Positions 41,464 through 47,264 of a stretch of DNA of 64,000 nucleotides are shown here, one piece after another. A model generated the notes under the pieces. It was not told the origin of the DNA and made no database searches. It saw nothing but the letters and a program-made list of their open reading frames with translations. The first letter of the stretch is position 1. Each line of letters starts with the position of its first letter. Source of the stretch: Isosphaera pallida ATCC 43644 (lineage in GTDB: Bacteria > Planctomycetota > Planctomycetia > Isosphaerales > Isosphaeraceae); contig NC_014962.1 in NCBI RefSeq assembly GCF_000186345.1, positions 1,612,001 to 1,676,000 on the forward strand, given 5' to 3'. Position numbers and translations under genes: made by a program.

Positions 41464-43101
41464 TCACATCGGTCTTGAGAAACGGTTGCGGGGCACGGCC
41501 GACGTGGCGTCGCGGATCGCTCTCCAGAGTTCCATCATGTCGTATGGCTTGGTCAGAAATGCGGTCAGTGGCGGGGCCACCGTGGTGGACGACAGTTGGC
41601 GGCTGAGGATCACGAGAGGACCATCGTAACCCATCTGCCGAAAGAGGCGCGGGGTCACGTTCAGGTGGTCGGCGTCGGCCAAGACGAGCGGAAGTCGAGG
41701 AGGACGCCCTGTGGACAACTCGCTGATCGATTCAAACTCGTCTTGACGATCGCCCACGCTCGTTCGAGCGTACCAGGCCATCAACTCGTCGATGTCTTGG
41801 GCGAGGGTTGGAGTTCCACCCGCTTCGGCGAGTTGACGCATCAAAACTTGGGCCGAAAATGCCCCACAATCCAGCACCAAAATCTGATACCGCTTGAGAA
41901 CCGGCATCGCAACCAAGGTGGATTCCGACTCGCCGATCACCTCGGCTTCAAACTCAAACACGAAGCAACTGCCTTTAGAAGGCTGGCTCTCCACTCGCAG
42001 CGAGCCACCCATCAGACACGCCAACTTCTGAGCAATGACCAAACCCAACCCCCAACCCGTCCGACTCGACTTCGTCCCCCGGCTCTGGATTGGAAAGGAA
42101 CCCGGCTTGAACAACATCTCGATTGTCTCCGGGTCCATCCCCGAGCCGCTATCCTCCACCTCGAAACGCAAGCGGACCCTCTGCGTCGAAAGAGTGGTCG
42201 CCCGAACTCGGACCACGACGCCACCGACGTCGGTGAATTTGATCGCGTTGCCAATCAAGTTGATGAGCATCCGTTTGATGCGGGCTTCATCTCCAACGAT
42301 CCGAGTTGGTACCTCCGAGCCCAAGTCGCACACCAATTCGAGATTCTTGGCGCGGGCCAACACGTCTTGACAGCGGATCAACTCCAAGAGCGACTCATGA
42401 AGATTGAACGGCGCCAGACGCAAACGCAGTCGGCCCGACTCCAAACTGGTGTAATCAAGAAGTTCCGTCAGGAGGTCCATTACGATTTTGGAGCAAGCTT
42501 GGATTCGTTCCAGGTCGCTTTCGATGGTCTCGATCGTCTCGCCGGAGGCCAGAATCTCGGCCAGTTCGGAAATAACCCCCACTGGGTTGCGGATGTCGTG
42601 GGAAACCTGGGCCAGCAAATTCCGCAGGTCTTCATTCTCGCGGGAGGCCCGTTCGCCGGATTCGCGCCAGGCGGTTTCCATGCGGTGGCGGTGAAGACTC
42701 AGCTCGATGGCAGCGCGCAATTCTCCTTCGCGGCAAGGCTTGTGCAGATAGGCGTAGGGATGGGTTGGCTTGGCTCGTTCGATGGTGAACTGGTCGGCGA
42801 AAGCGGTCAAATAGATGATCGGCACGTGCAGCTGATCGGAAATTGTTCTCGCTGCTTCGATGCCGTCTTCGTCGCCCTTGAGTCGGATGTCCATGAAAAC
42901 CAGGTCGGGCCGTAATTCCTCGGCCAACCGAACTGCGTCAGCGGCAGTATCGGCGTGACCGACCACGCGATGACCCATCTCGTGCAATTGGTCTTCCAGG
43001 CCCATCCGCAGAATTGCCTCGTCCTCGACTAAAAGGATACGCACCGGCGAAGCCGCCGCTGCTGGCGACGAAGATGATTCCACCGGAACGTTGTTCATCA
43101 T
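41464..43101 (-). CDS. Hybrid receiver/histidine kinase/receiver protein
   Basis: 545 residues. The N-terminal receiver (about 20-135) has the acidic pair in LLVEDEA, the phospho-acceptor Asp71 in FMDIRL, LTAF and YLHKP. A HisKA dimerisation helix carries His168 in QVSHDIRNPVGV. HATPase_c has NLIGNAIKF (N box), DSGSGMD (G1) and GWGLGLVIAQKL. The C-terminal 120 residues (QILVLDCGAF ... LVLADAD ... FLTKPYD) resemble a receiver lacking part of the acidic pocket. The gene overlaps the phytochrome gene by 4 bases, so it very likely receives the light signal as response regulator and relays it. No DNA-binding domain is present. Confidence 0.9.
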   Translation of the reverse strand: MMNNVPVESSSSPAAAASPVRILLVEDEAILRMGLEDQLHEMGHRVVGHADTAADAVRLAEELRPDLVFMDIRLKGDEDGIEAARTISDQLHVPIIYLTAFADQFTIERAKPTHPYAYLHKPCREGELRAAIELSLHRHRMETAWRESGERASRENEDLRNLLAQVSHDIRNPVGVISELAEILASGETIETIESDLERIQACSKIVMDLLTELLDYTSLESGRLRLRLAPFNLHESLLELIRCQDVLARAKNLELVCDLGSEVPTRIVGDEARIKRMLINLIGNAIKFTDVGGVVVRVRATTLSTQRVRLRFEVEDSGSGMDPETIEMLFKPGSFPIQSRGTKSSRTGWGLGLVIAQKLACLMGGSLRVESQPSKGSCFVFEFEAEVIGESESTLVAMPVLKRYQILVLDCGAFSAQVLMRQLAEAGGTPTLAQDIDELMAWYARTSVGDRQDEFESISELSTGRPPRLPLVLADADHLNVTPRLFRQMGYDGPLVILSRQLSSTTVAPPLTAFLTKPYDMMELWRAIRDATSAVPRNRFSRPM

Positions 43102-46100
43102 GTTCCAGACTCCCGTTTATCTGAATCGAATGGGTTTGGAGGCTTGAGAGGAAAGGACAACAACGCGGTGACACCTTCACCGGGTCGGGAAACAAATCGA
43201 ATCGACCCATCGAGCTGCGCTGTGAGGTTGTGAATCAGTCGCAAACCCAACGACGGTGAGGCGGACCAATCGAACCCCTCCGACGCGCCGGGCCCGTCGT
43301 CGCCGACAGTCAGCGTCAAACGATTGTCTGAAGAACCTCTCACCGCGACCTCCAAACGCCCGGCCCGTCCTCCGGCGAACGCATGTTTGAGCGCGTTGGT
43401 AATCAGTTCATTGAGGATGAGACCGAACGGAACCGCCCGTTCCAGGTCCAACTCCAACTCCTCCGGTTCGGCTGAGATCCGCAGGTCGATCTGGCTGAAT
43501 CCGTTGGAACCGCCCTGGGTCAACAGGTCGCACAATCGCCTCAGATAATTTGGAACCGGAAGCGAGTTGCTCCAGCCTTCCCGACGATGCAGCAACTCGT
43601 GAACCATCGCCAATGAATGGATGCGCGATCGGCTTTCCTCCAATGCTTGGGCAGCCAGATGATCAAAGCGTCCCAGCTGCCGGGCTTGAAGTCCCAAAAG
43701 TTCGACGATCACCGCCAGATTGTTCTTGACCCGGTGATGCACTTCCTTGAGCAAAATCTCGCGTTCCATCAGCATCTTTCTCAATTGAAGTTCAATCTCC
43801 TTGCGTTCAGTAATGTCGATGGTGGTACCGATCGCCTTCAACGGATCACCTTCATCGCTCCTGATCGCTCGACCGCGAGTGAGAAACCAACGAGTTCCAT
43901 TCCCGGGAATATTGACAAAATACTCGTATTCAAACCAGCCAGCTTTTCCTTGAATGTGTTCTTTCAATAATTCAATGGCCTGTTGATGAATTTCAGGACT
44001 CATACGACTAAGAATCTCGCTAGCGGTTCGAGGTGGATCAGCGGGATCAAATCCCAACCAGGCATAGAGTTCCGGGTCGGGCGTGAACACATCGGTGGCG
44101 AGGTCGTATTCCCAGACCGCGACTCGCCCGTTCTGGATCGCCATGCGATAGCGTTCCTCCCGCGCACGGAGTTCCTGCTCCATGCGGTTGCGTTCGGTCA
44201 AATCCAGCGCGACGCCACCCAGCAACTTTGTTCCTGAACGGCTCTGAATCGGAAACCTGACCACCATCGCCTCGCCGACTCCACCGTCGGCCATCTGATA
44301 TTCCTCGATAGTAGCTGTCGACTCGCCGGTCTCGAACACCCGGCGACTGGCTTGACGATACGCCTGCATTCGGTCCGACGGAATCAACTTCTCGAATGTC
44401 GAATGATGGAATTGATCGAGCCGGAGGCCATAGTAGTTCAGCAGGAAACGGTTCACATAGTCGAAACACAGGTCGTCACGTTGGATCCAAGCGGCGATTG
44501 GTAAGTGATCGAGGAAGGCGCGGAAGTTCAGTTCGGCTTGTTTGCGATCGGTGATGTCGATGATGGTGCCAATTCCTTTGATCGGCGCGCCCGCCTCAGC
44601 GCAAACCACCTGGCCCCGGCCGAGGAACCAGCGAATGCCCCCATCGGTCGTCCGGACGCAACATTCGAGTTCAAATGGATCTCGATCTCCTTCCAACGAA
44701 CGACGTACTTGCTCCTGTACGGCGGGCAGGGACTCTGGATCGAGATAGTCGAGCGCTTCGGTCAAGGTCCGAGGAGCTTTGACGGGATCCACCCCCAACC
44801 AGGTCCAAAGTTCCGGGTCGGGTGTGAACACATCGGTGGCGAGGTCGTGTTCCCAGACCGCGACTCGCCCGTTCTGGATCGCCATGCGATAGCGTTCCTC
44901 CCGCGTGCGGAGTTCCCGCTCCATGCGGTTGCGTTCGGTGATGTTGATTGCGATCTCGCCTAGCAGTTTCTTGTCGGAGCCGTTGGGAATCGGGAACTTG
45001 ATGACCAGATACTCGCCCGTCGTACCGTCGGCCTTGGGGATTGACTCGGTGAAATTGATGGTCTCGCCGGTCTCGAACACCCAGCGGCTGGTATTGCGGC
45101 GTTGCTCCTTCTGTTCGGGTGTCTGAAGGAAGCAAGGGTCGAGGTTGGTTTGGCCGAGACCGTGTTCGAGCTGGGCGTGTCGGTTGCAAAACTCGAATTC
45201 AAAATCGTCACGTTGGATCCAAGCGCTCACCGGCATATGGTCCATGAAGGCTTGGAAGCGGTTGCGAGTGGCCTTGAGTTCCTCCATGGTTGTTTTGCGC
45301 GTGGTGGCGTCATGGAGGACCGCCAGCACAAAGAGGAGCTTGCCCTGATCGTCATTGACAGCGCGCCAGCGTTCCTCGACCCAGAGGCGTCCTTGAGGAA
45401 GGTCAAGCCAACGCTCCGCGTCGATCGAGCCGCGTTGGGCGTGGGTGGTCCGCCAACGTTCGACCACCACGGGGTCGATCGCCAAGGCCGGGTCGTCCAA
45501 TCGTTTGCCGACCACATCGCCTTCAGGTCGTCCCAGAATACGTTCGGCGTTGTGGTTCCAAACTAGTACCGTCCCCACAGGGTCAATCGCGAGAACTGCG
45601 TCGTCGATCTGGGCGAAGAGCGCTTCGCTCAGCGTTCGAAGCCTTAGGCCAAGCAAACGACGCCACTCGATCACGCCGCCCAGAACGTGATCGCGAATCG
45701 TTTCTTCGACAATGAGCCGATCCGCGGTCGTCCAGGGACGGCTGCGGCCGCGGACCACTTCGATCCATGCGGCGAACGAGGCGCAGGGTTCGAGACGATA
45801 GCCCTCGGGAGTCGGGGTCAATCCTTTGCGGTGGTCGCCACCCCAGGTCACCGTTCGGGCGAACTCGCCTCGGAACCAAAGCAACCAGTGTTGGGGATAG
45901 TCGGGTACCTTGAGGGCGAGTAAGCCGGCGGCGACTTCGGCCTGGTCGGCGAACTCCGGCATGATCTCGGCGAGATGATCGCTCACCACCAGCGGTTCGC
46001 CTCGTTGGTCGAGCCGATCGACGAGGCGATGCACCATCTCGTCGCGTGGGACAATGCCTCGGGAGTAAACCGCATCGGGGCGCGCCACGGCGAAACCGTC

Positions 46101-47264
46101 GGCATGCAGCAATTCGAGCAGCCCGGCCTCGGGACCGGCGAGCAATTGCTCCCATTCGGCGATCGAACCGATCCGCAACACTTGGGGCAAGGTGCGGAGT
46201 AGCTGCTGAGCGCGACGAAAGGCGTCCACCTCCGCGCGGGCCTCGGCTAGCTTGACCCAGCCGGCGATCAAGTCGGCGGCGATCAAAGCGGCCCGACGGG
46301 CCGCGTGACGGGGAACGCGGGGCGTTTGATGGTGACAAGCGATCAAACCCCAAAGCCTCCCCTCCACGACGATCGACACGGAGAGGGTGGCTCGCACTCC
46401 CATGTTGGTCAAATAGCGGCGATGCACCGGGGACAAGGCGCGACAGAGCAGGGGGGCCAGATCGACGCCGGGTTGCAGCGCTGGTTCGAGCGGCACCGGT
46501 TCGGTAGCGACGTCGCCCAAGACGCGAAGCTGATGGCGTTGGTAAAGCGCGCGGGCCTGAGCAGGAATGTCCGAGGCGGGGTAACGCAACCCCAGATACG
46601 GTTCCAGGTCAGGACGACGGGCCTCGGCGATGACCTCGCCATTCCATTCCTCGTCGAACCGGTAAATCATTACCCGGTCGTATCCCAGACCGCTCCGCAA
46701 GCGGGCGACGGTGTCCTGAAGCACTCCGGCGCGGGTCTCCTCATGGACCAGCAACTTGGCCAGGTCGCCGACCAAATTCTCAAGGGCCTCGTCGCGGTCC
46801 TCTGTCAACTCGGTGGAGTTCGTCGAGGTTTGCCCCTCGGAATCGGAATCCTCCCCCGTCTCGATCAACTCCAGCAGCCATCGACCCGTGTGACGATGCA
46901 ACAGCGCTTCACGCGGCGTCGGGTCGCCATCCCAGGAGGAGGCCCACGGTTTCTCGAAGCGACCCAGGAATCGCGACTGGCCTTCTGTCAAGGCGTTCGG
47001 GCCATGCATCCCGCGCGCCACTTTGGCCGCGAGTTCGGGCGCGAGGACCTGATCAAGGTGATCCTCCTTCTCCTGACTAGTCTGCGTGATCAAGCTTCGC
47101 TGGGCGGTTTCACCTGCTCGCTGGAGGATCCGCCCTGCACTGTCGAGAACCCAAGCGATCCCAAACGACTGAATCGCGCCGGGACGCTCAATTGGCTCCG
47201 AGGCGCATTCCGCCAAAGCACGTTCCAACGCATCCGACAACAAGGGCTCCGTGTCCGCAGGCAT
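43098..47264 (-). CDS. Bacteriophytochrome with multiple PAS domains and HisKA_2-type kinase
   Basis: 1388 residues from ATG 47264 (GGAAGGA 6 bases before). The photosensory core is complete. Cys20 in ECASEPIERPG sits where biliverdin attaches. PAS spans about 25-110. GAF follows with YPASDIPAQARALY (Asp232), SPVHRRYLTNMG (His281) and WGLIACHH. PHY spans about 320-520. The PHY tongue reads PCASF (493-497) where PRxSF is usual, so the conserved Arg is Cys. Five PAS-like segments follow (about 545-655, 670-780, 790-905, 912-1025, 1037-1155). HisKA_2 comes next with LLKEVHHRVKNNLAVI (His1176), then an ATPase domain with LNELITNALKHAF. It is a red/far-red sensor kinase, cytoplasmic, in an operon with the hybrid kinase/regulator. 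Confidence 0.95.
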   Translation of the reverse strand: MPADTEPLLSDALERALAECASEPIERPGAIQSFGIAWVLDSAGRILQRAGETAQRSLITQTSQEKEDHLDQVLAPELAAKVARGMHGPNALTEGQSRFLGRFEKPWASSWDGDPTPREALLHRHTGRWLLELIETGEDSDSEGQTSTNSTELTEDRDEALENLVGDLAKLLVHEETRAGVLQDTVARLRSGLGYDRVMIYRFDEEWNGEVIAEARRPDLEPYLGLRYPASDIPAQARALYQRHQLRVLGDVATEPVPLEPALQPGVDLAPLLCRALSPVHRRYLTNMGVRATLSVSIVVEGRLWGLIACHHQTPRVPRHAARRAALIAADLIAGWVKLAEARAEVDAFRRAQQLLRTLPQVLRIGSIAEWEQLLAGPEAGLLELLHADGFAVARPDAVYSRGIVPRDEMVHRLVDRLDQRGEPLVVSDHLAEIMPEFADQAEVAAGLLALKVPDYPQHWLLWFRGEFARTVTWGGDHRKGLTPTPEGYRLEPCASFAAWIEVVRGRSRPWTTADRLIVEETIRDHVLGGVIEWRRLLGLRLRTLSEALFAQIDDAVLAIDPVGTVLVWNHNAERILGRPEGDVVGKRLDDPALAIDPVVVERWRTTHAQRGSIDAERWLDLPQGRLWVEERWRAVNDDQGKLLFVLAVLHDATTRKTTMEELKATRNRFQAFMDHMPVSAWIQRDDFEFEFCNRHAQLEHGLGQTNLDPCFLQTPEQKEQRRNTSRWVFETGETINFTESIPKADGTTGEYLVIKFPIPNGSDKKLLGEIAINITERNRMERELRTREERYRMAIQNGRVAVWEHDLATDVFTPDPELWTWLGVDPVKAPRTLTEALDYLDPESLPAVQEQVRRSLEGDRDPFELECCVRTTDGGIRWFLGRGQVVCAEAGAPIKGIGTIIDITDRKQAELNFRAFLDHLPIAAWIQRDDLCFDYVNRFLLNYYGLRLDQFHHSTFEKLIPSDRMQAYRQASRRVFETGESTATIEEYQMADGGVGEAMVVRFPIQSRSGTKLLGGVALDLTERNRMEQELRAREERYRMAIQNGRVAVWEYDLATDVFTPDPELYAWLGFDPADPPRTASEILSRMSPEIHQQAIELLKEHIQGKAGWFEYEYFVNIPGNGTRWFLTRGRAIRSDEGDPLKAIGTTIDITERKEIELQLRKMLMEREILLKEVHHRVKNNLAVIVELLGLQARQLGRFDHLAAQALEESRSRIHSLAMVHELLHRREGWSNSLPVPNYLRRLCDLLTQGGSNGFSQIDLRISAEPEELELDLERAVPFGLILNELITNALKHAFAGGRAGRLEVAVRGSSDNRLTLTVGDDGPGASEGFDWSASPSLGLRLIHNLTAQLDGSIRFVSRPGEGVTALLSFPLKPPNPFDSDKRESGT
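44068..44198. repeat. Internal duplication in the phytochrome gene, copy B
   Basis: This 131-base block matches 44809-44939 with about five mismatches by eye and an offset of 741 bases (247 codons). It encodes the end of one PAS linker and the start of the next PAS_3 domain (ERYRMAIQNGRVAVWEYDLATD). Confidence 0.8.
44809..44939. repeat. Internal duplication in the phytochrome gene, copy A
   Basis: Partner of the block at 44068-44198, in frame. It encodes the same PAS_3 start with His in place of Tyr. Flanking PAS sequence is clearly less similar, pointing to gene conversion or a constrained segment. Confidence 0.8.

Follow-up and report, generated by a model that had tools for sequence, protein, structure and literature searches.

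The window analysed here is a 64,000-nucleotide stretch of the Isosphaera pallida ATCC 43644 genome (NC_014962.1, positions 1,612,001 to 1,676,000), which encodes on its minus strand a histidine kinase of the bacteriophytochrome type, with PCASF in its PHY tongue where PRxSF is expected. The open reading frame (ORF), its strand and its coordinates had been given in an earlier sequence-only reading and proved exact on re-reading, and translation and alignment bore out PCASF at residues 493-497. The motif had been placed at about 45772-45786, which is the right region but two bases off the actual position. The gene and the features of its photosensory core are listed below.

43098-47264, minus strand: bacteriophytochrome histidine kinase, 1388 residues; PAS_2-GAF-PHY followed by several PAS repeats and a HisKA_2/HWE-type kinase, without a receiver domain
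47205-47207, minus strand: Cys20, expected biliverdin attachment site; Cys in 231/267 rows of this column (position by arithmetic)
46563-46571, minus strand: DIP motif, Asp232-Ile-Pro, residues 232-234 (position by arithmetic)
46422-46433, minus strand: SPVH with His281, residues 278-281 (position by arithmetic)
46329-46337, minus strand: CHH, residues 310-312, including the His290 equivalent (position by arithmetic)
45684-46160, minus strand: PHY domain, residues 369-527; Pfam PF00360 scores 127.7 bits, cut-off 27 (position by arithmetic)
45765-45845, minus strand: PHY tongue from WGG (474) to W500, predicted β-hairpin (position by arithmetic)
45795-45797, minus strand: Arg490, the retained Arg at PRxSF-3, a position that is Arg in 191/254 parsed tongues
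45783-45785, minus strand: Cys494, codon TGC, at the conserved Arg position (DrBphP R466), from sequence and alignment
45774-45788, minus strand: PCASF, residues 493-497, where PRxSF is expected, from sequence

A bacteriophytochrome with an altered tongue

Pfam places PAS_2 (residues 20-84), GAF (181-333) and PHY (369-527) in that order, all three above their cut-offs, followed by PAS stretches from about residue 547 on and by HisKA_2 (1174-1249) and HATPase_c (1280-1374) at the kinase end, where the HWE_HK and HisKA_2 models both exceed their cut-offs. The NCBIfam equivalog NF041576 (BphP), a narrow model of whole BphP proteins, was not reached (299 bits against 1040). The presence of PAS_2, together with an attachment cysteine that is the N-terminal Cys20 rather than a GAF Cys, excludes the PAS-less Cph2-like class. 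Cys20, DIP, SPVH and CHH, the landmarks named in the sequence-only reading, were all found where expected, and the alignment showed the usual residue at C20, Y201, D232-I-P, R247, R275, S278, H281, Y284, H311, W474 and W500. Asp232 is the equivalent of Asp207 of DrBphP, and His281 corresponds to its His260.

Within PCASF, the Pro, Ser and Phe of the motif are kept and Arg alone is gone; WGG, the Trp-switch residues and F497 are also kept. Besides Cys494, the photosensory core contains cysteines 20, 274 and 310. A frameshift or misalignment behind PCASF was considered and rejected, as the alignment to relatives stays in frame through SFAAW and beyond. Since, in addition, the whole 1388-residue protein contains no P[RK]x[ST]F elsewhere, no alternative alignment of the tongue restores PRxSF. 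The protein is thus predicted, from its sequence, to be a biliverdin-binding bacteriophytochrome kinase that has lost only the Pr-side anchor of its tongue (Pr and Pfr being the red- and far-red-absorbing states), an assignment in which we have moderate confidence.

An AlphaFold2 model of the window core with 34 relatives (mean pLDDT 82.0, pTM 0.80) showed the tongue as a hairpin with strands 482-485 and 488-491, with block means of 73 and 62 for residues 481-500. The Protein Data Bank entries closest to it were modules of bacteriophytochromes, led by XccBphP (E 1.0e-41), and many of these structures are of Pr or dark forms. The model shows an intact phytochrome fold with a hairpin tongue.

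Distribution of arginine loss

Loci for comparison came from a protein search of species genomes, of which the best 80 were kept, and from genome searches with further stretches fetched, covering 45 genomes of the family, 397 of the class, 95 of the family and 102 of the order to which the nearest relatives belong and 392 of the phylum, as well as Pseudomonadota (299), Actinomycetota (296, of which 7 yielded phytochromes) and Cyanobacteria (98). Counts cover the fetched matches among those listed, leaving out many cyanobacterial rows and one weak Pseudomonadota row, and the sampled sequences share kinship, so that a fraction is not a frequency in nature. Among 271 distinct phytochrome cores, a count that leaves out cores shorter than 120 letters and cores contained in others, the tongue column is Arg in 257 by alignment and in 262 after five gapped rows were read by eye. 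Three of the remaining rows end before the motif (L027, L264, L356), L360 has no recognisable motif, and the other five are substituted, Isosphaera with C, L113 and L120 with Q, L313 with G and L312 with D. All five are planctomycete proteins of one small group. The comparison with other planctomycete phytochromes proposed in the sequence-only reading thus found Arg in most sampled cores, but also four other planctomycete proteins without it.

Those four have the tongues PQRSF (L113), PQRSF (L120), PGRVP (L313) and PDRSF (L312), each with Arg at x, the position after the tongue Arg column, which is Arg in 38/267 rows overall. Each has also lost further landmarks. L113 lacks WGG, and in L120 (in L311) the second His is replaced by Asn. 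L313:1988-6748 and L312:2193-6221 encode phytochrome-like kinases with an eroded bilin pocket: in the former, attachment Cys, DIP Asp and His are all gone, and the latter has Glu and Gln at the His positions. Because Isosphaera has Ala at x and these landmarks in place, it is the only sampled PAS-GAF-PHY protein with Arg gone, no neighbouring Arg and the other landmarks intact. Two further kinds of tongue were seen in the sample: L360 (G1241), a phytochrome-like protein from the same phylum, has no recognisable PRxSF in its tongue region, and L272 and L273, from Actinomycetota, read PRGSS, with Arg kept and the motif Phe replaced by Ser.

In a FastTree phylogeny of 259 rows, the four substituted rows of sufficient length fall in a clade of nine (support 0.96); L312 was too short and was placed by alignment only. 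The same nine came out as a starred set (95/84) in a more careful 60-row tree built without motif columns 493-497. This tree needs four changes at the Arg site, all inside the nine-member clade, and the losses to C, Q, Q and G sit on separate tips. The order within its 8-row fork is not settled (94/75), and it does not confirm L115 as the sister, a placement given by FastTree only. Arg is kept in five members (L109, L110, L111, L112 and L115), the last of which reads PRKDF and has Cys for the SPxH His. Like Isosphaera, L113, L120, L313 and L312 belong to this small clade or group and have lost the tongue Arg; unlike Isosphaera, with its HisKA_2 and no receiver, they end in HATPase and a receiver. 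Pfam found HATPase_c and a receiver in 9/9 of the other group members examined, and HisKA also in 7/9 at the threshold used. Beside two clade phytochromes lie genes for a 2Fe-2S ferredoxin domain fused to a Ser/Thr kinase domain (L307:6823-8559 and L306:2053-3807; ten selected neighbour ORFs at five loci were scanned).

The idea that Arg loss is confined to this planctomycete clade was rejected, as cyanobacterial Cph2-like loci lose it too. Of the 37 loci, 34 gave a resolved tongue; 29 of these have Arg and five lack it (PKLSF, PQFSF, PQLSF, PSLSF and PELSF). L407 was ambiguous, L409 and L410 did not match the pattern, and the loci were counted without deduplication (L382 equals L395 in tongue sequence, and L405 equals L408). 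The five loci with K, Q, Q, S or E (L397, L398, L402, L403 and L404) have intact DIP or DLP and CH motifs; an ORF start shortly before GAF supports PAS-less status for all but L402, which is cut at the locus end.

Published systems provide further comparisons. SyB-Cph1 from the hot-spring Synechococcus JA-2-3B'a is reported to have a PLISF tongue that adopts a helix in the Pr crystal, where Ser361 binds Asp86, and its authors suggest that the hairpin becomes looser once the Asp-Arg bridge is lost (PMC11264168). Like the Isosphaera protein, it lacks the tongue Arg, keeps the motif Ser, the DIP Asp and the bilin pocket and comes from a hot spring; unlike it, it is PAS-less, binds phycocyanobilin via a GAF Cys and has Leu at the Arg position (the paper speaks of arginine-to-isoleucine). 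According to passages of PMC6126659, the R472A variant of SaBphP1 regained a stable Pfr. This is likewise a PAS-GAF-PHY bacteriophytochrome without the tongue Arg, but its Ala is engineered, the usual His is missing (Thr289) and Lys stands at x. The same passages describe RpBphP3, a natural bacteriophytochrome with an altered, TRxSF-type motif and an altered photocycle from Pr to Pnr; there, however, the Pro is replaced and Arg is kept. With 5/34 Cph2-like loci and SyB-Cph1 also lacking Arg, the Isosphaera tongue is not without precedent. PRxSF is typical of bacteriophytochromes but does not define them, since other Arg-less phytochromes have been published. By sequence comparison, then, the cysteine-for-arginine change is real and rare, yet has natural precedents.

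Expected effect on the light switch and its alternatives

Published passages describe a D207:R466 contact in Pr that is replaced by S468 in Pfr (PMC6798134), and the same exchange of partners in Cph1 Y176H (PMC11924222). The conserved bridges D197-R462 and D207-R472 are described as having to be cleaved, it is thought, for Pr to convert to Pfr (PMC9737838), and the Asp-Arg bridge has been termed pivotal for Pr (PMC12617373). In PsBphP1, the hairpin Arg466 is described as bridging to Glu10 in Pfr (PMC11316798); by our own count this is the -3 Arg. The pairing of the tongue Arg with the DIP Asp, which the sequence-only reading attributed to known phytochromes in Pr, is thus a published Pr feature that is missing here, but the arginine is not universal, as the five Cph2-like loci and four planctomycete proteins show.

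On this basis, the DIP Asp232 of the Isosphaera protein would be left without an arginine partner in Pr, and the β-hairpin tongue would dock weakly. With Ser496, which pairs with the Asp in Pfr, and Arg490 still in place, the helical Pfr would be reached more easily or be more readily occupied at rest. Dark reversion may then be slower, or the resting state mixed or bathy-like. That Pr is weakened, and Pfr relatively favoured, can be inferred from the published bridge exchange, SaBphP1 R472A and the retained Ser496 and Arg490. We favour, about evenly balanced between belief and doubt, a working receptor whose Pr Asp-Arg lock is gone, whose Pfr-side Ser and -3 Arg are kept and whose balance may be shifted towards Pfr. 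The earlier suggestion that a Cys at this site alters dark-state stability or the photocycle is thereby made plausible, through the passages on D207:R466, SaBphP1 R472A and SyB-Cph1.

The signal would leave through the HisKA_2-type kinase, probably to the translationally coupled product of the downstream gene:

43143-43745, minus strand: HisKA_2 and HATPase_c kinase module, residues 1174-1374 (position by arithmetic)
41464-43101, minus strand: downstream REC-HisKA-HATPase protein, 545 residues, with a 4-base overlap between its start and the phytochrome stop

This 545-residue neighbour is likely the phosphotransfer partner of the phytochrome.

Several observations weigh against a shift towards Pfr. 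The SaBphP1 effect was obtained in a background without the usual His, and its authors credit Lys at x (PMC6126659), where Isosphaera has Ala. For SyB-Cph1, the resting state is still Pr, and the authors concede that its helix could have been imposed by crystallisation (PMC11264168). The AlphaFold2 model speaks to the fold and not to the effect of the Cys, since the other alignment rows mostly carry Arg. Traits tied to bathy bacteriophytochromes are a tongue five residues longer than in DrBphP, a -8 Gly, a -3 Arg, an HWE kinase and a Gln at PASDIP-3, the last found in most of them (PMC12362586). Isosphaera has a tongue W-to-P distance of 19, the -3 Arg and, beside HisKA_2, an HWE_HK match above its cut-off, none of them specific: the -3 Arg (191/254) and the same tongue length (119/254) are common among ordinary phytochromes. 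The -8 Gly and PASDIP-3 Gln are absent, the residues being Thr and Leu, and Leu at PASDIP-3 is found in 196/248 parsed cores. Finally, the loss of pocket residues in several relatives from the clade speaks for drift.

Neutral drift is the main rival: constraint on light switching would be relaxed in a loosening receptor clade, and the protein would perhaps be a poor or partial photoreceptor. The further landmarks lost in L313, L312, L120 and L113, and the scatter of the clade losses over separate tree tips, fit this explanation. Against it, Isosphaera keeps every other landmark examined in an intact 1388-codon frame, and Cph2-like proteins without the Arg, too, have intact DIP or DLP and CH motifs; we regard drift as possible but doubtful. 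The change could also be functionally silent, with WGG, F497, W500 and Arg490 holding the tongue and the photocycle ordinary. The retained Trp-switch residues and F497, the hairpin of the model and the K, Q, S or E tolerated by functional-looking Cph2-like proteins agree with this, but conservation of Arg in 262/271 sampled cores and the bridge being called pivotal for Pr (PMC12617373) speak against it, and silence seems rather unlikely.

A base-calling error hiding a true CGC (Arg) is highly improbable: TGC is a single C-to-T transition from CGC, the commonest Arg codon of the gene, Arg is present in the nearest relatives (L109-L112, L115) and the sequence comes from one strain, but the genome is described as finished as chromosome and plasmid (PMC3072084) and other clade members have lost Arg too. 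That the thiol itself matters, through a light-dependent bilin adduct or a redox-controlled disulphide, is very hard to credit, the sole point in favour being that the residue is a cysteine; none of the other substituted proteins sampled, planctomycete or Cph2-like, has Cys here. For the reaction of Cys494 with the chromophore raised in the sequence-only reading we found nothing in favour, and in Pfr the side chain at this position is described as facing away from the pocket (PMC6126659).

Light biology of Isosphaera

The genome report gives Isosphaera pallida IS1B a chromosome of 5,472,964 and a plasmid of 56,340 base pairs and describes the organism as the first phototactic heterotroph known (PMC3072084); the word 'phytochrome' is absent from it. 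No published report of this phytochrome was found in the literature searched, in which 'Isosphaera' was not searched together with 'phytochrome', and the passages of PMC5812497 searched for Isosphaera contained nothing useful. For planctomycete phytochromes, the literature search turned up one census paper. A heme oxygenase, as needed for biliverdin supply, is encoded elsewhere in the genome (one PF01126 match, not adjacent to the phytochrome). A second phytochrome (L315:5470-8487, plus strand, also L002) has the order PAS-GAF-PHY-HisKA-HATPase-REC and the tongue PRESF; it reads SDHC where SPxH is expected, with Cys replacing the His that neighbours the pyrrole water, and has PSFDVP in place of PASDIP. 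There is also a microbial rhodopsin gene (L417, G000:C2:5130829-5131512; 134 bits against a cut-off of 24.6) with the helix DWLLTVPLLMVE. This helix resembles that of a proton pump.

A speculative and improbable extension is that a phytochrome can come to rest in Pfr, or become temperature-compensated, in nature by loss of the Pr lock instead of gain of Pfr contacts. The thermophile Isosphaera, like SyB-Cph1, would in this way offset a thermal reversion that is fast at high temperature, and the receptor may guide phototaxis. Repeated loss of the tongue arginine marks out a planctomycete clade, within which the Isosphaera protein is a natural single-residue probe of how important the Pr Asp-Arg bridge is, with the other landmarks intact; in the literature passages covered, the weight of that bridge has so far rested on engineered mutants and one PAS-less crystal. 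For the organism, the phytochrome with PCASF is a candidate red-light receptor in a phototactic heterotroph that also encodes a second phytochrome and a rhodopsin.

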